Positions 26,196 to 33,215 of a stretch of DNA of 62,505 nucleotides are shown piece after piece. A program made the translations under genes and the position numbers. Each line of letters opens with the position of its first letter. Position 1 is the first letter of the stretch. The notes below the pieces were generated by a model that worked only from the letters and a program-made list of their open reading frames with translations, was not told the DNA's origin and did no database searches. The stretch comes from a virus, in the IMG/VR virus record IMGVR_UViG_3300032223_002350, positions 1-62,505 of that record, one strand, 5' to 3'.

Positions 26196-26453
26196 TTATG
26201 AGTATTGCTTTATTTTATTGATTAGCATTGCTTTTGGCATTGCTCCTATAGTCTTGCCTACTTGCTGACCATCTTTAAGGAATATTAATGTTGGCACTGA
26301 TGTTACTCCATATGAAGATGCCATCATTATATTATCTTGGGCATCTATATAACTAATATTCGCGCCTGTCTCAGAAGCAGCTTGTTGTGCTACTGGTTTG
26401 AATGTTGCACATGGTGCACATGTTTTTGTCGAAAAATAAAGAATGCTTATCAT
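26196..26453 (-). CDS. thioredoxin/glutaredoxin-like protein, 85 aa
   Basis: A short thioredoxin fold with active site CAPC (residues 12-15), the cis-proline region SVPTLIFLKDGQ (52-63) and KTIGAMPK. At 85 residues it is shorter than bacterial thioredoxin, as in phage versions. It probably reduces the C-terminal Cys pair of the ribonucleotide reductase at 36936-38789. It overlaps the start of the next gene by 4 nt. Confidence 0.85.
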   Translation of the reverse strand: MISILYFSTKTCAPCATFKPVAQQAASETGANISYIDAQDNIMMASSYGVTSVPTLIFLKDGQQVGKTIGAMPKAMLINKIKQYS

Positions 26454-28258
26454 TTTGATTCTAATATTGATTTAAATTTGAAATATGATTTATGCTTTTC
26501 TACGCCTGGTATATCCCAGCCATTTTCGAAATCTGCTATAGTATGATGTGGTTTAATATAGTACTGCCATATTGGATTCTTTATATACTTCAACCATACA
26601 CACAAAAGATCTTCTAAGTCCATTGGTTTCATATTATATCTTTCGCACAGCTTCATAAAATCTTTATACTTAAATCCAGGTTTTAAAATCTTCATCGATG
26701 CTGTGGCTGTAGGTCCAAGTTTACAATCTGACCATTCATCTATCTCAAATAAGCCTTTAAGTTTGGTATCAAGATTTACGTAATTTGCAAGATCAGCTGC
26801 CATTAGAAGATAGTGGAAATTAAATGCATGCAGATTTTGTTTCTTATTATATTGATTCATTATGTCTACAATGCTACCTACACTAGTACCAGGTTTAATT
26901 TTATCAATGATATGATCGGCCCATGGTTCAAAGTGATTAATAACCAAATCTTTAAGAGGATATCTTGGGGGTTGATTCACACAGCAACTTACAAAGTTAC
27001 CTTGATCTTCTTTCATAAACTTATAGAAATCTTTATATGAGCCATAGTTTTGGAAGTTCAATAAGATTGTATTATTATATCCGTGATTGTATTGATTTGA
27101 TGTGCCTGATCCAAATATCCTATGTGAATATATCAAAAAGAGATAGTCATAAGTTCCCCATTCTGGATTTGCAATTGGTTTATAGATATCCCATGTTAAT
27201 GAATCTTGTTGCATAAAATAATCCTCAAGCAAGAAAATGAAACCTTCAAATCTTCTATCAATATTGTGGAATAGATTCACGTTATCGATATACCCATCTC
27301 CAGTATTAAACACGCGTTGCTTTGTATCTATAAAAACTTTTTCTGTCTTTCTATTAATATCAATATAATAATCCAAACATTCTAAAGCTTTAGGATTATA
27401 TCCATTATGGTCTAATATAATATTCATGTTTGATTTTTTTTCTTTGTCTTTTATTAGATACACACTTGATGAACCTGGAATAATCTCTTCACTATATGGT
27501 ACTGGTTCTGCCTCATCATGATATTCTTCTGTTTGGCATTGATAGTCTTCTGATGAAATAGGTCCTGATACATGCATTGGAATCTCTGGAATATCTGAGT
27601 ATTTCATATAGCTTGTACTTGGCTTAATCTTATCAAAATGTCTCTGATACACATGTAAATTTGTAATAAACCAATGCATATCTCCCATTGCAGTATTTGT
27701 ATCAAAGCAAATTTTACTCATAAGTTTTGCAAAAGTATACTGATCATTACAAAATCCAAACCAAAGATCTATGCTTCTTGCGAATACTGTGAGATTTAAT
27801 TTACCATCTACTATTGTAAAATTAAGTACAACGTTACACGGAGTATCTGCGGTATATCTCTCTAGCTCATTTATATCGTAATGAACTACCATCGCTCTTC
27901 TTGAATTAGGATTACTCTTGAGCTCCTGAATAGCACGATCTAGCTGCCCATTCTTATTCCAAAAGTAACCATAATTTGAATTGACTTCTGTAGTACCCGG
28001 CACCATCATATTTTTCCAGATCTTTGCACGTTCAGATATTTCAGATGCATCTCGATTTCCAGTTAAATACCAATGCCACTCATATTCAGCATAATCTATA
28101 TTGAATTTTCTTTCTGGTTCTGTAATAATCATCTGCATTGGATTATCCAAAGTAAATGATTTATTGAATAGGGCTTTTGTACCTGAAAAGTCTTTGCCTA
28201 TAGATATAGCTTCTAAGTAAAGCTGCTTAAATGCTTCGTTTGCGTTTTTAAACTTCAT
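26450..28258 (-). CDS. thymidylate-synthase homologue (dCMP-type) fused to a second, HhH-like domain, 602 aa
   Basis: Residues 1-210 align to ThyA without gaps over the core. SRR (119-121) binds phosphate, Cys141 in TPCN is the nucleophile, and FARSIDLWFG, His202 and Tyr204 are conserved. The residue matching E. coli Asn177 is Asp172 (GFCNDQY); Asp there marks dCMP enzymes such as T4 dCMP hydroxymethylase. Residues about 215-602 are a second domain (YDYLFLIYSHRIFGS, HAFNFHYLLMAADLANY, CKLGPTATASMKIL). It resembles the helix-hairpin-helix, glycosylase-like families linked to base hypermodification (aGPT-Pplase/HMUDK_hel), though I hold that loosely. It may therefore make and process a modified pyrimidine. 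Plain thymidylate synthase is the alternative. Confidence 0.7.
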   Translation of the reverse strand: MKFKNANEAFKQLYLEAISIGKDFSGTKALFNKSFTLDNPMQMIITEPERKFNIDYAEYEWHWYLTGNRDASEISERAKIWKNMMVPGTTEVNSNYGYFWNKNGQLDRAIQELKSNPNSRRAMVVHYDINELERYTADTPCNVVLNFTIVDGKLNLTVFARSIDLWFGFCNDQYTFAKLMSKICFDTNTAMGDMHWFITNLHVYQRHFDKIKPSTSYMKYSDIPEIPMHVSGPISSEDYQCQTEEYHDEAEPVPYSEEIIPGSSSVYLIKDKEKKSNMNIILDHNGYNPKALECLDYYIDINRKTEKVFIDTKQRVFNTGDGYIDNVNLFHNIDRRFEGFIFLLEDYFMQQDSLTWDIYKPIANPEWGTYDYLFLIYSHRIFGSGTSNQYNHGYNNTILLNFQNYGSYKDFYKFMKEDQGNFVSCCVNQPPRYPLKDLVINHFEPWADHIIDKIKPGTSVGSIVDIMNQYNKKQNLHAFNFHYLLMAADLANYVNLDTKLKGLFEIDEWSDCKLGPTATASMKILKPGFKYKDFMKLCERYNMKPMDLEDLLCVWLKYIKNPIWQYYIKPHHTIADFENGWDIPGVEKHKSYFKFKSILESK

Positions 28259-28643
28259 CGTATGATTTTAATTTTTTTCTAGTATCATCCACAGAAAGTA
28301 CATTATAGTTGTCTTCGGCTTTACCAAACATTTCTTCATACTTAGTAAAAAACGGTAGAAATATTACAATGCCACCTTTTTCTTTCATCCAATTCATCTC
28401 TTTTGCTATGCCTGCTCCAACGCTATTGTCTCCAAATCCAAATGCAAATAGCATATCACAGCTTTGTACGATTGGTTTAAAATAATCCATACCTTCTTTT
28501 TTAACTCCTATTTGATGGATCTCTTGGTTTGGATTTATTATTTCGTAATTTTCACTATACTTCTCAAGAAAGAATTTCTCTATAATAGTATTGTATGTAT
28601 TAATTGGATGAGCAAAATACATCCGTTTTTTATTTTCTGTCAT
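28248..28643 (-). CDS. nucleoside 2-deoxyribosyltransferase-like protein, 131 aa
   Basis: MYFAHPINTYNT (residues 8-19), EIINPN, MDYFKPIVQSCDMLFAFGFGD (with catalytic-type Asp) and GAGIAKEMNWM match the nucleoside deoxyribosyltransferase/DUF4406 fold. Such proteins cleave or exchange nucleoside bases or bind nucleotides. It lies between the dCMP deaminase and the dCMP-type synthase fusion and overlaps both, so a part in pyrimidine remodelling is plausible. Confidence 0.65.
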   Translation of the reverse strand: MTENKKRMYFAHPINTYNTIIEKFFLEKYSENYEIINPNQEIHQIGVKKEGMDYFKPIVQSCDMLFAFGFGDNSVGAGIAKEMNWMKEKGGIVIFLPFFTKYEEMFGKAEDNYNVLSVDDTRKKLKSYDEV

Positions 28644-29046
28644 ATTGTGAAATATCTATAAATTTTTTAAGAAAGTCTATACCGTCTGTCTTTCTGTACT
28701 CTTGAAAATAAAGTACACGTTTTATTCCAGATTGTAGTATTAATTTTGCACAGTCAACACATGGACTCAGAGTTAAATAAAGTTCTGCTCCTTCGACCGC
28801 ATATCCAGATCTTGCTGCTTTGAGAATTGCATTCATTTCAGCGTGTATAACTTCTGGTAATGTAATATCGTTTCTTTCACAACAATTATCCATACCAGCT
28901 GGAGTACCATTATATCCAAATGCTATGATATTATTATCTTTTACTAAGACTGCGCCAACTTTTGAACGTTGACAGTGAGATAATGTTGAGACGTCTTTTG
29001 CAATATTGATATAAACTTTATCGAGCTTTTTTTGCTTATCTACCAT
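28630..29046 (-). CDS. dCMP deaminase, 138 aa
   Basis: Zinc-dependent cytidine-deaminase fold: His68-Ala-Glu70 (HAE) and PCVDC (residues 95-99) form the metal and catalytic site. Upstream, RSKVGAVLVKDNN and GYNGTPAG are the substrate loops of the ComEB/T4 Cd family. It turns dCMP into dUMP for thymidylate synthesis. An extra Cys/His set (HCQ, CCE) near residues 24 and 55 may bind a second zinc, as in T4 Cd. Confidence 0.9.
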   Translation of the reverse strand: MVDKQKKLDKVYINIAKDVSTLSHCQRSKVGAVLVKDNNIIAFGYNGTPAGMDNCCERNDITLPEVIHAEMNAILKAARSGYAVEGAELYLTLSPCVDCAKLILQSGIKRVLYFQEYRKTDGIDFLKKFIDISQYDRK

Positions 29047-29313: not shown

Positions 29314-29745
29314 TTAATGAATTCCAGTTGATCCAAATCCTCCAGAGCCACGTTCTGTCTCTATATCATCAAGAGACTCAACTACTTCAATACTATCATA
29401 ATTCATCTTAATAAGAATAAACTGAATTAGCTTTTGACTTGGATTTATTAATGTGGTTGTTTTTCCTGAATTAAATACGTGGATATGAATTTCTCCAGTA
29501 TAATCCTCATCTACTACCTCTGCCCCCTTTGTGAGTTTATTCTTTGTTGCAATGCCAGATTTATTGAATGCTATTAATGCATATCCTGGTGGTACTTGTA
29601 CTTTTATACCTGACGGAATTAATGCATCTTGCCCAGGTCCTAAAAGAATTGGCTCCATATCATCAGGAGTATAAAAATCAATACCCGCACTCTTGCTTGT
29701 GCCTCGAATTGGTGTTTTTACTGGTTTAATTTTTTGGATTTTCAT
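29314..29745 (-). CDS. dut: dUTPase, 143 aa
   Basis: All five trimeric-dUTPase motifs are present: SAGIDFYTPDD (motif 1), FNKSGIATKN (motif 2), VVDEDYTGEI (motif 3, uracil pocket), QKLIQFILI (motif 4) and ERGSGGFGSTG (motif 5, glycine-rich arm). It hydrolyses dUTP to dUMP, keeping uracil out of DNA and feeding pyrimidine synthesis with the dCMP deaminase 270 nt away. Confidence 0.93.
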   Translation of the reverse strand: MKIQKIKPVKTPIRGTSKSAGIDFYTPDDMEPILLGPGQDALIPSGIKVQVPPGYALIAFNKSGIATKNKLTKGAEVVDEDYTGEIHIHVFNSGKTTTLINPSQKLIQFILIKMNYDSIEVVESLDDIETERGSGGFGSTGIH

Positions 29746-30010: not shown

Positions 30011-30289
30011 TTACTTTGTTTTATCGTAATCTTCTTTGTAATGTTCTACCATGGCTGTAAGATATGCAATGGCATCTAAAATGTTATCATATTTTTTTGA
30101 GTATGATTCTCTTGACATCTTTAAAGCAACCATGCAGAGATACATGTCCTTTGCCGTGATATCTTTTCCTGTCATAGTAGAAGCTAATATTGCAGCTTTT
30201 TCCATGCTCTCTTTCATTGGACCGTATTTTCTTCCAGATTCCTCTGCTCTACGATATACAATATCTTGTGCGTGTTCTAAAATGTTCAT
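30011..30289 (-). CDS. DUF6378-type phage protein, 92 aa
   Basis: From MNILEHAQDIVYRR (start at 30289) the sequence follows the DUF6378 pattern I recall: A..I...RGEKYGP, a middle block AAILASTMTGKDITAKDMYLC and a closing DAIAYLTAMVEHY. It is common in phage nucleotide and replication regions; function unknown. The frame is open further upstream to 30433, but that part has non-coding character and overlaps the next gene. Confidence 0.65.
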   Translation of the reverse strand: MNILEHAQDIVYRRAEESGRKYGPMKESMEKAAILASTMTGKDITAKDMYLCMVALKMSRESYSKKYDNILDAIAYLTAMVEHYKEDYDKTK

Positions 30290-30315: not shown

Positions 30316-31245
30316 TTAAGAAAGTATATCTTGTAAGTATGGAAAGTATTTTGGCTTTAAATGTACTGATTGCTTTGATTCTAATATTTCTAGCATTGCT
30401 GTACCATCTTCGTCTATCCAATTTTCTGGCCATGATATAAAATTAAGTCCTGATTCTGCTATAATATTATTTGCTATTTGTCTTAATTCCATTCTCTGCT
30501 GACGTGATCCAAAGAATGGTTGCTTTTTATATAGCCCAGTTCCAGGTATTTTACGTGATTCATGTTCTACTGGAAGTAATTGAATCAATGTTGGATTATT
30601 GAGTTCTTTTGCTAGGTTTACGTATTTTGTAAATAATTTTTGTGTTGCTGCTACTGGATCTGATTGACGAGCTAAATGAAATCTCAAATCTATATTCCCA
30701 AAGTAAAGCACAACATTACCTGGTCTTACTTGATTTATTGCCTGAGCATTTGCATGTTTCAACCATCCAAATAAAGTCTTACCGGGATTAAAACTCAACG
30801 CGTATCCAGGTCTCCATACTGATAATGAATGTGAGTCTCCAATGACAATATTTGGGTTTGGTTTTGAGAAATAATCAATGGCTTTATTTGTATGCCATGG
30901 CCAATGAGAAGTTTGAATTTTAATTCTATTATTGAACTTAAGAAAATCAAAAGTCTTATTGACAAATTCTATCTCCCCAGTATATTGAGATATAGCCGTC
31001 ATCTTTTCTGTGTGAATTGGTTGTGGTCCTCCTGGAATATTAAAGCTGCCATCTGTGAAATTTACTCCTTCACATATATACAACTTTTCATATTGACTCC
31101 ACGTATTGGGATCTGGATTTACGTCTATCTCATCTTGTGGATTAAGATCTTTGACCATCTTTGTTGTGATGAGCCCGTAAGCACCACCCTGCGAATTTAG
31201 AGTGGAGCCTACGTTTCCCATTATTGATATTAGTGCTGCTTTCAT
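30316..31245 (-). CDS. SGNH-hydrolase-like protein, 309 aa
   Basis: IVIGDSHSLSVWRPG (about residues 133-147) matches SGNH block I with the nucleophile Ser after GDS. VVLYFGNIDLRFH resembles block III (G.N.D). HLKPKYFPY near the end provides the block V His. It may be an esterase or an acyl-sugar deacylase; the target is unknown. It is placed directly after groEL in the same transcription unit (23 nt apart). Confidence 0.6.
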   Translation of the reverse strand: MKAALISIMGNVGSTLNSQGGAYGLITTKMVKDLNPQDEIDVNPDPNTWSQYEKLYICEGVNFTDGSFNIPGGPQPIHTEKMTAISQYTGEIEFVNKTFDFLKFNNRIKIQTSHWPWHTNKAIDYFSKPNPNIVIGDSHSLSVWRPGYALSFNPGKTLFGWLKHANAQAINQVRPGNVVLYFGNIDLRFHLARQSDPVAATQKLFTKYVNLAKELNNPTLIQLLPVEHESRKIPGTGLYKKQPFFGSRQQRMELRQIANNIIAESGLNFISWPENWIDEDGTAMLEILESKQSVHLKPKYFPYLQDILS

Positions 31246-31268: not shown

Positions 31269-32921
31269 CTACATTCCTGGCATTCCTGAAAATCCATCTG
31301 CTGAGTTTTCTTCTTTTTCAGACTTCTTTTCTAAAACCACAGATTCTACTGTGAGGATTGTGCCTGCTACTCCACTTGCATTTTTGATAGAAGATGTTAC
31401 TACCTTTGTTGGATCTAAAAGTCCTGCTTCTATACCATTGACAATACACTTATTTTTTGCATCATAGGTAGTAAATTGATCATCTTTTAAATTTATACTA
31501 TGGAGAATCTCATACCAAGTATCAACACCCGCATTTGAAAGTATCTTTTTAAATGGTTCATGACAAGCTTCTTTGACAATATTAAAACCAATCTTCTCAT
31601 TTTCTTTCCAATCCAATGTTTTATTCTTCATGGCCGTGATTGCTTTAATAAGAGCTATACCGCCACCTGGAAGTATACCATCTACTAATGCTGCCTTTGT
31701 AGCAAGCAGTGCATCTTCTACTCGATCTTTCTTCTCTTTCATCTCAATTTCAGAGTTGCCTCCTACATTAATGATTGCTACTCCACCAATAAGTTTACCA
31801 AGACGTTCTTGTAGTTTCTCCTTTTCAAAGAAAGACTGTGCTTTATCTATCTGGTCTTTGATTTCCAGTGATCTTGCTTGTATTACTTCTGCATCTCCTT
31901 TGCCATCTACGATTGTTGTGTCTTCCTTGCTTACTGTTGCCAATCTTGATTTTCCTAGGAATTTATCCATGTCTTGAGGTGTTATCTTGTCAAGCTTATG
32001 ACCTTTGCTTTTTGATAGCACAGTACCACCTGTTAGTATTGCCATGTCCTCAAGAAGCAATGTACGACGATCACCAAAGTCTGGAGCTTTTACTGCACAT
32101 ACTTTTACAACACCTCTCATCTTATTAACGATCATTAGTGCTAGTGCTTCATCTCCATAATCTTCTGCTATGATAAGGATTGATTTGTTCTCTGAGTTTG
32201 CTTTTTGTAGGAATGGTATGATCTCAGTTGCTGCATTGATTCTGCCATCGAATAAAAGAATATAGCAATCTTCAAGGATAGAGGTCATCGTAGTATTATT
32301 TGTCACGAAATATGGGCTCTTATATCCTCGGTCAAACTGCATACCCTCTACAACTTCGAGCGTAGTCTCTCCTGTTTTTGACTCTTCAATTGTGATCAGA
32401 CCCTCACGGCCTACTTTGTCTATTGCTGCAGAGATTAATTCTCCCACCTCAGAGTCATTATTGCCTGATATTGTTGCTACTTGCTTGATCTGCTCTTCTG
32501 TGCTTACATCAACTGAAAACTTCTTCAGCTCTTCTATAACCATTGCAACCGCCTTGTCTATACCAGCTTTTACTTCAACTGCATTAGTGCCTTGGCGTAT
32601 TTCTTTCATGCCCTCTTGGATCATCTTTGTAGCAAGCAGTGTTGATGTTGTTGTGCCATCTCCAGCTTCATTTGCCGACTTTATCGATACCTGCTTCACC
32701 ATCTGTGCTCCAAGATCTTCGAAGTCATTCTCTAACTTTAAAAATGATTTTGCAACTGTGACACCATCTTTTGTGGCTTTTACTTCTCCATTTGGTTCAC
32801 GTATCAAGACTGTGCGGCCTCCTGGTCCAAGCGTTGATGATACTGTCTTATTTAATTTTTCAATGCCGGCAAGGAGTTGTTCCTTTAGCTCTGTTCCGAA
32901 AACACTATTTGTTGTACTCAT
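31269..32921 (-). CDS. groL: GroEL-type chaperonin, 550 aa
   Basis: Full length with the usual landmarks: LGPGGRTVLI, KDGVTVAKSF, AGDGTTTSTLLA (ATP site, residues ~86-97), ISGNNDSEVG, an intact apical domain, LPGGGIALIKA near the C-terminus and a Met-rich end (GFSGMPGM) like the bacterial GGM tail. It folds proteins in a double-ring cage with GroES. Carrying both GroEL and GroES is rare for a phage; the likely client is a virion or replication protein. Confidence 0.95.
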   Translation of the reverse strand: MSTTNSVFGTELKEQLLAGIEKLNKTVSSTLGPGGRTVLIREPNGEVKATKDGVTVAKSFLKLENDFEDLGAQMVKQVSIKSANEAGDGTTTSTLLATKMIQEGMKEIRQGTNAVEVKAGIDKAVAMVIEELKKFSVDVSTEEQIKQVATISGNNDSEVGELISAAIDKVGREGLITIEESKTGETTLEVVEGMQFDRGYKSPYFVTNNTTMTSILEDCYILLFDGRINAATEIIPFLQKANSENKSILIIAEDYGDEALALMIVNKMRGVVKVCAVKAPDFGDRRTLLLEDMAILTGGTVLSKSKGHKLDKITPQDMDKFLGKSRLATVSKEDTTIVDGKGDAEVIQARSLEIKDQIDKAQSFFEKEKLQERLGKLIGGVAIINVGGNSEIEMKEKKDRVEDALLATKAALVDGILPGGGIALIKAITAMKNKTLDWKENEKIGFNIVKEACHEPFKKILSNAGVDTWYEILHSINLKDDQFTTYDAKNKCIVNGIEAGLLDPTKVVTSSIKNASGVAGTILTVESVVLEKKSEKEENSADGFSGMPGM

Positions 32922-32924
32922 ATT

Positions 32925-33215
32925 CTAATTTAAAATTGCTAAGACTTCTGTCTCTTTTGTGATGAAATAATCCTCTCCGGCGAGGCTGATCTTTGTAGTG
33001 CCCATCTTTGGTATGAGAACTATGTCTCCTATATTAAGATTTGATGGGATAGTTGTATCAGAATTATAGTTATACGTACCTGAAGTCGCTATAACTTCTC
33101 CTGATTCTGGACGTTCTTTGCCCATGTCTGGAAGAATGATATTGCCTACCATCTCTTCTGATGTCTCTACTGGCTTGAGTACAATGTACCCATTTTTCGG
33201 TGTGATTTTGCTCAT
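32925..33215 (-). CDS. groS: GroES-type co-chaperonin, 96 aa
   Basis: The length equals bacterial GroES. NGYIVLKPVETSEEMVG, IILPDMGKERPESGEVIA (mobile loop) and IGDIVLIPKMGTTKISLAG (beta barrel), then DYFITKETEVLAIL, follow the GroES order. It lies 3 nt upstream of groEL in one operon; the promoter candidate is at 33240-33261. Confidence 0.93.
   Translation of the reverse strand: MSKITPKNGYIVLKPVETSEEMVGNIILPDMGKERPESGEVIATSGTYNYNSDTTIPSNLNIGDIVLIPKMGTTKISLAGEDYFITKETEVLAILN

Follow-up and report, generated by a model that had tools for sequence, protein, structure and literature searches.

What does a virus gain from a gene that joins a thymidylate synthase (TS)-family enzyme to a domain resembling DNA glycosylases, and which reactions might such a protein couple? 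This question is raised by an open reading frame (ORF) of 602 residues in the window, which is the entire 62,505-base IMG/VR virus record analysed here. A first-pass annotation, made from the letters alone, had read it as a fused hydroxymethyl- or methyl-dCMP synthase and base-processing enzyme involved in DNA hypermodification.

A putative dCMP-type enzyme fused to a second domain

The ORF comprises a TS-fold domain, a linker and a second domain, termed DOM2 (Table 1). The two-domain form is kept in about a dozen other viral contigs: full-length homologues with 78–99% identity are present in the independent contigs L001–L009, L011 and L018, and more distant full-length fusions in L044 and L056. 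Because full-length homologues recur in independent contigs, the fusion is genuine and maintained, and not an assembly artefact. Column conservation is high in the TS domain and in DOM2, and low in the linker between them. The TS domain also exists as a stand-alone 213-aa gene in relatives, and in three contigs (L010, L012 and L047) a GIY-YIG-type homing-endonuclease gene (with a NUMOD3 Pfam match above its cutoff and a GIY-YIG match below its own) separates a 213-aa TS gene from a 445-aa DOM2 gene. In the tree, the split DOM2 clusters with that of L021, which is fused, with 99/96 support and a distance close to zero; the split is therefore secondary and recent. No published TS–DOM2 fusion was found in a literature search to which the literature defining the superfamily was external.

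The Pfam Thymidylat_synt profile (PF00303) matches residues 26–239 (98.8 bits against a cutoff of 24.3), and the ThyA-aligned residues listed in the first-pass annotation (Cys141, Arg161-Ser162, His202 and Tyr204) are indeed invariant in an alignment of 19 sequences. The best solved relative is the dCMP hydroxymethylase gp42 of phage T4 (PDB 1b49, E = 3 × 10−17), with ThyA chains ranking behind, which agrees with the dCMP-enzyme kinship proposed earlier; the domain also falls short of the NCBIfam ThyA equivalog cut-offs. In ThyA, Asn177 selects dUMP, and an Asn-to-Asp change at this site shifts the enzyme towards dCMP. The window protein has Asp172 there: as the annotation had maintained, this residue pairs with the Asp of gp42 (‘FGFCND’ / ‘FGFRND’) in the printed alignment, and with the ThyA Asn (‘LGVPFN’) in the alignments to 6auj and 4fog. 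The position is Asp in all 66 relatives scored, and Asn in the dUMP-type gp058 of phage M6.

Judged by alignment, the domain thus resembles a gp42-type dCMP hydroxymethylase in its TS fold, catalytic Cys, Arg-Ser, His and Tyr residues and the Asp at the Asn177 position, whereas gp42 is a single-domain protein and the window enzyme is fused to DOM2. Hydroxymethylation of dCMP is accordingly a putative activity that is well supported by homology; a hydroxymethyl product is favoured over a methyl product because of the kinship to gp42, a choice that sequence alone does not settle. A canonical ThyA (E = 1.5 × 10−93) that has Asn at the specificity position (‘LGLPFN’) is encoded as a second gene in the closest large relative (158 kb), and the fused enzyme would therefore be dispensable for dTMP.

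Table 1 Positions of the fused ORF, its domains, its operon neighbours and related loci (window coordinates unless a locus is named)
Feature	Position	Strand	Basis or remark
Fused ORF, 602 aa: dCMP-hydroxymethylase-like domain, linker and DOM2	26450..28258	(−)	ATG start, no internal stops
TS-fold domain, residues 1–212, catalytic Cys141	27623..28258	(−)	PF00303; top PDB match 1b49
Codon of Asp172 (ThyA Asn177 position)	27743..27745	(−)	Alignments; relatives
Variable linker, residues 213–279	27422..27622	(−)	Column conservation; split/insertion site in L010/L012/L047
DOM2, residues 280–602, predicted all-helical, HhH-glycosylase-like, ADDT/HMUDK_hel type	26453..27421	(−)	AlphaFold; BFVD and PDB matches
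SGNH/GDSL-fold protein (GDSHS), constant module partner	30316..31245	(−)	AlphaFold; Foldseek, VIA-align
DUF6378 protein, likely start Met49 of a longer ORF	30011..30289	(−)	In 84/88 SGNH loci
dUTPase	29314..29745	(−)	Family profile searches
dCMP deaminase	28630..29046	(−)	Family profile searches
GroEL-like chaperonin, conserved module flank	31269..32921	(−)	Sequence; conserved neighbour
Small ORF, earlier called NDT-like, judged outside the module	28248..28643	(−)	Only in window and L001
Split TS / endonuclease / DOM2 loci	L010:1730-4387; L012:3363-6020; L047		Two genes around GIY-YIG/NUMOD3 gene
ORF233c, 807-aa hypothetical protein, SGNH and HMUDK_hel-like domains	L032:4465-6888 (Aeromonas phage 44RR2.8t)		
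Second, canonical ThyA, Asn at specificity site, extra inserted segments	L214:1495-2667 (158-kb relative G001)		

A glycosylase-like fold predicted for DOM2

DOM2 has no match in Pfam, PHROGs, NCBIfam or PDB sequences. Its AlphaFold model, built from a 28-sequence alignment, is all-helical (pLDDT 87, pTM 0.85). Among predicted viral structures (BFVD, searched with Foldseek), the top match to this model is an ‘Amino acid:DNA transferase domain-containing protein’ (A0A6J5L8T5; TM 0.70, E = 1.2 × 10−7), followed, at probabilities of 0.99–1.00, by an aGPT-Pplase1 protein (1.00) and another ADDT protein. The fold is shared over the whole domain, which would place the modelled DOM2 in the ADDT/aGPT-PPlase structural group. 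In the PDB (VIA-align), AGOG-type HhH 8-oxoguanine glycosylases fill the first six rows, with 1xg7 among them bearing only the title ‘conserved hypothetical protein’. Their Z scores of 7.2–8.9 lie well above that of the next unrelated row (4.2), but such middling values are common for helical models. By this measure, the DOM2 model resembles the AGOG enzymes in overall helical fold (Z 7–9, about 200 residues). However, their identity is 6–10%, and DOM2 has no HhH-GPD (PF00730) sequence match.

At the level of sequence profiles, DOM2 belongs to neither HMUDK_hel (PF18723) nor ADDT (PF18724): no PF18723 match exceeds the gathering cutoff in the window or in 14 other records, and DOM2 lies below the PF18724 profile cutoff. 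Comparison of DOM2 with HMUDK_hel (relatives of M6 gp055) by hhalign gives a probability of only 6–15% (single-comparison p 0.002–0.007), above the 2% obtained by the same method for ADDT against HMUDK_hel. In this weak alignment the G(P/T)xA and DxExxxC motifs are in register, such that the GPTA and DLEDLLCVWLKY blocks of DOM2 line up with G-P-G-x and D-x-E-x-x-x-C-x-x-x-K-Y of HMUDK_hel. A plain hmmsearch with DOM2 against the proteins of M6 and phiW-14 ranks the HMUDK_hel protein first, at E = 0.47. ADDT was also considered as the nearest sequence family and rejected (hhalign 0.4%), though the structural match bears its name. The second-domain blocks quoted in the first-pass annotation were located at R380-I-F, H477-AFNFHYLLMAADL and L514-GPTATA, and its suggestion of an HhH-glycosylase fold akin to the ADDT/aGPT-PPlase/HMUDK_hel proteins is supported by predicted structure and, weakly, by sequence. 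We conclude that DOM2, as modelled, is a new family inside this structural group, with a probable kinship to HMUDK_hel indicated by the fold and by weak profile scores.

Most relatives encode DOM2 as a gene of its own. Near free-standing homologues have 321–325 aa and 73–77% identity, and a divergent set has 347–390 aa and 20–27% identity. Kept in the divergent forms (window-protein numbering) are D321, R335, R380-xx-GS, G393, N396, F422, P431, F481, D489, G515, P545, E549-D550 and C553, which include the conserved motif strings R380-xx-G383-S384 and P545-xDxE549-D550-xxC553. A pattern scan found no DOM2 in bacterial or archaeal genomes, and the divergent forms gave nothing significant against cultured phages; direct sequence homologues sought in cultured phages amounted to weak PacA matches (E = 0.02), which were left unused. 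At one locus (L213:3-3393), a divergent DOM2 gene adjoins a genuine HhH-GPD glycosylase (PF00730), together with a 293-aa protein that has no Pfam match and is, by eye, related to the ADDT/aGPT group.

A conserved operon with an SGNH-fold partner

The surroundings of the fused ORF were surveyed around the GDSHS protein (252 relatives recovered, 80 loci kept). Gene order is strongly conserved as GroES–GroEL–GDSHS–(DOM2 and/or PLP)–DUF6378–dUTPase/MazG–dCMP deaminase–TS, and TS is also visible in 70 of 88 GDSHS-gene loci, which are not all independent, at least one contig being counted twice. Within flanks of limited reach, each of these 70 loci has the PLP gene, DOM2 or both: 35 carry the PLP gene without DOM2, 21 carry DOM2 without the PLP gene, and 14 carry the two together. 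The PLP-only class can hide a distant DOM2, as in a 174-kb ‘PLP-only’ record with DOM2 far away on the same contig. The PLP gene is found in most relatives of the window operon and is missing from the window clade; its products match PHROG 7093, of which M6 gp052 is a member (E = 1 × 10−24 to 1 × 10−52). A new fold had been considered for this gene (X5), which has no PDB profile match, yet PHROG 7093 groups it with the M6 PLP enzyme. No hmC glucosyltransferase was found among the genes examined around the fused ORF. The first-pass annotation had named an NDT-like gene as a possible partner. The ORF exists, but it occurs nowhere except in the window and in L001, a sister contig of 99% identity, and it has no nucleoside deoxyribosyltransferase match in Pfam, PHROGs or PDB sequences, so that this part of the earlier proposal is not supported. 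That annotation had not picked up the SGNH partner, the PLP enzyme or the existence of DOM2 as a free-standing family, nor the connection to the T4-like Aeromonas phages described below.

Several further features accompany the module. A phage-encoded GroEL/GroES pair (window 31269-33215) adjoins it in nearly all relatives. A protein of 155–203 aa, with no family named, is encoded directly downstream of DOM2 in L009 (6050-6517) and relatives, and is missing in the window. A conserved 229-aa lipoprotein-like ORF lies between the SGNH and PLP genes in L105 (854-1543) and 28 relatives. Erythrobacter phage ZS04_7 (L205:2326-4761) encodes an N6/N4 DNA methylase joined to a PLP-enzyme domain related to the PLP gene of the module, possibly another base-hypermodification fusion.

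The AlphaFold model of the GDSHS protein (pLDDT 92) matches GDSL/SGNH esterases (Foldseek E = 1 × 10−4; VIA-align Z up to 12), with OatA and PatB among its structural matches. Across 32 sequences, Ser138, Asn184 and His295 do not vary, and the protein thus has the predicted fold, the Ser in a GDS block, the Asn block and the His block of an SGNH enzyme. The Asp three residues before the catalytic His is not present; position 292 is Q, S or A, and Glu289 is invariant instead. SGNH folds cover both hydrolases and O-acetyltransferases, and acyl transfer by the GDSHS protein is therefore one possibility and acyl removal another. We know of no precedent for an SGNH hydrolase in base modification.

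SGNH homologues in T4-like Aeromonas phages

Among cultured phages, GDSHS homologues were found only in T4-like Aeromonas and Stenotrophomonas phages and in Tenacibaculum phages PTm1 and PTm5. In 44RR2.8t and relatives, the SGNH domain is fused to a C-terminal domain that matches HMUDK_hel weakly (E = 0.0037). The N-terminal domain of 44RR2.8t ORF233c is homologous to the window SGNH protein; the Aeromonas protein joins SGNH to an HMUDK_hel-like domain, whereas the window ORF joins TS to DOM2, and gp42 of 44RR2.8t is a separate gene elsewhere, whereas the hydroxymethylase-like domain of the window sits in the fusion. In another T4-like phage (L156), the homologue of this C-terminal domain is a separate protein and matches HMUDK_hel above the cutoff (E = 9.5 × 10−7); no gp42 match was found in the 81-kb fragment of this phage.

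The 40 Aeromonas/Stenotrophomonas records that carry SGNH are exactly the listed records above 20 kb with a 44RR-type gp42 (≥~80% identity), in a comparison where nine gp42 fragments of 5–7 kb are not judgeable and one more Aeromonas gp42 record is counted and not listed. Because few, closely related genera are involved, this co-occurrence represents one or two evolutionary events. Phages 44RR, 31 and 25 carry gp42 and gp56 and no glucosyltransferase, and whether gene-42 phages of this type modify hmC otherwise was left open by Petrov et al. (PMC2993671).

The neighbours of these genes vary. ORF233c adjoins a sodium:solute symporter gene (PF00474). In Aeromonas phage 25 (L033:1123-4406), the SGNH homologue is a stand-alone gene. 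Its neighbours, a UDP-galactopyranose mutase (PF03275) and a possible glycosyltransferase of 358 aa, hint that hmC might be modified with a sugar. In L156 (1508-6242), a myo-inositol-1-phosphate synthase (PF01658) and a methyltransferase lie between the SGNH gene and the HMUDK_hel-type gene.

A candidate route to hypermodified cytosine

We consider it probable, with considerable room for doubt, that the fused ORF is a dCMP 5-hydroxymethylase joined to DOM2, coupling hmC synthesis to post-replicative hypermodification of hmC. The route set out next is inferred throughout, from the reactions and their sequence to hmC-DNA as the substrate. The TS domain would generate 5-hm-dCMP, with the dCMP deaminase, the dUTPase and perhaps the DUF6378 protein shaping the nucleotide pool; the phage DNA polymerase would incorporate hm-dCTP; on DNA, DOM2 would capture and flip hmC, whose hydroxymethyl group it would derivatize jointly with the SGNH enzyme that the operon encodes; and in most relatives the PLP enzyme homologous to that of M6 might process the adduct further. 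The hypermodification step is supported by the fold, by operon content and by the Rosetta-stone fusions (TS–DOM2, and SGNH–HMUDK_hel in 44RR2.8t), where the structural assignments of DOM2 and the SGNH protein come from predicted models. Speculatively, joining DOM2 to TS may keep the modifier attached to the machinery that makes nucleotides close to the fork.

The closest known system is that of phage M6, in which hypermodified thymidine is documented (PMC6449724) and whose set comprises gp051 (ADDT), gp052 (PLP enzyme), gp054 (5-hmdU kinase) and gp055 (HMUDK_hel). M6 shares a homologous PLP enzyme (PHROG 7093) with most relatives of the window operon, and both M6 and the window group have an HhH-like helical domain (predicted for DOM2) and a TS-family enzyme. 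By contrast, M6 acts on hmdU, with Asn in gp058, whereas the window group has a dCMP-type TS; the window group has no HMUDK_hel or ADDT Pfam match, and the SGNH protein holds a conserved operon position. A tentative extension, which we regard as possible and rather doubtful, is that a cytosine counterpart of thymidine hypermodification spans window-type and T4-like Aeromonas phages, in which an SGNH-fold enzyme would replace the P-loop 5-hmdU kinase and activate or acylate hmC in DNA, its partner in handling the base would be DOM2 or an HMUDK_hel-type domain, and the product would be an undescribed base.

Other readings of the locus were weighed. DOM2 could instead be an active DNA glycosylase or lyase that attacks unmodified host cytosine DNA or repairs phage DNA, as a counterpart of T4 endonucleases II and IV, with the TS domain still making hm-dCMP. 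The standout PDB fold matches, all true glycosylases, and the HhH-GPD neighbour of the L213 DOM2 gene are consistent with this, but ADDT/aGPT-PPlase proteins match DOM2 better and over its full length, the HhH-GPD Pfam match is lacking, and in most relatives the operon includes a PLP enzyme of a type used in an established hypermodification pathway; we therefore regard such an activity as unlikely. Less likely again is that DOM2 acts on a mononucleotide (hm-dCMP or its di- or triphosphate) received from the fused TS, giving a hypermodified dNTP before replication: known members of the structural group belong to pathways that act on DNA, such as the 5-hmdU DNA kinase pathway (PMC6449724), and DOM2 is mostly encoded apart from TS, even if the fusion sets it beside a free-nucleotide enzyme in an operon rich in nucleotide-pool enzymes. 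Least probable is ordinary nucleotide metabolism, with a TS that methylates dCMP or still uses dUMP and with DOM2 and SGNH linked by chance. In favour of this reading, residue 172 alone cannot separate hydroxymethylation from methylation, and phage TS-family function is hard to tell from sequence (PMC5977210); against it, the nearest solved relative is gp42 and not ThyA, a relative has its own canonical ThyA, SGNH, TS and DOM2/PLP stay linked in many contigs, and the gp42 and SGNH record sets (40 listed records above 20 kb) are identical.

Implications

With hmC synthesis coupled to hypermodification as the preferred reading, the conserved gene cluster looks like an undescribed cytosine-hypermodification pathway, and the findings point to a way of decorating hydroxymethyl-cytosine that is widespread in phages and needs no glucosyltransferase. 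To our knowledge, no phage of the window group has been cultured. The culturable phages 44RR2.8t, 31 and 25 make the question of hmC decoration, open since 2010, addressable (PMC2993671). A new base, if one were found, would bear on restriction evasion, CRISPR resistance and the enzymology of DNA modification, and would provide functions for families that are now unnamed (PHROG 13881/17781 and DOM2).
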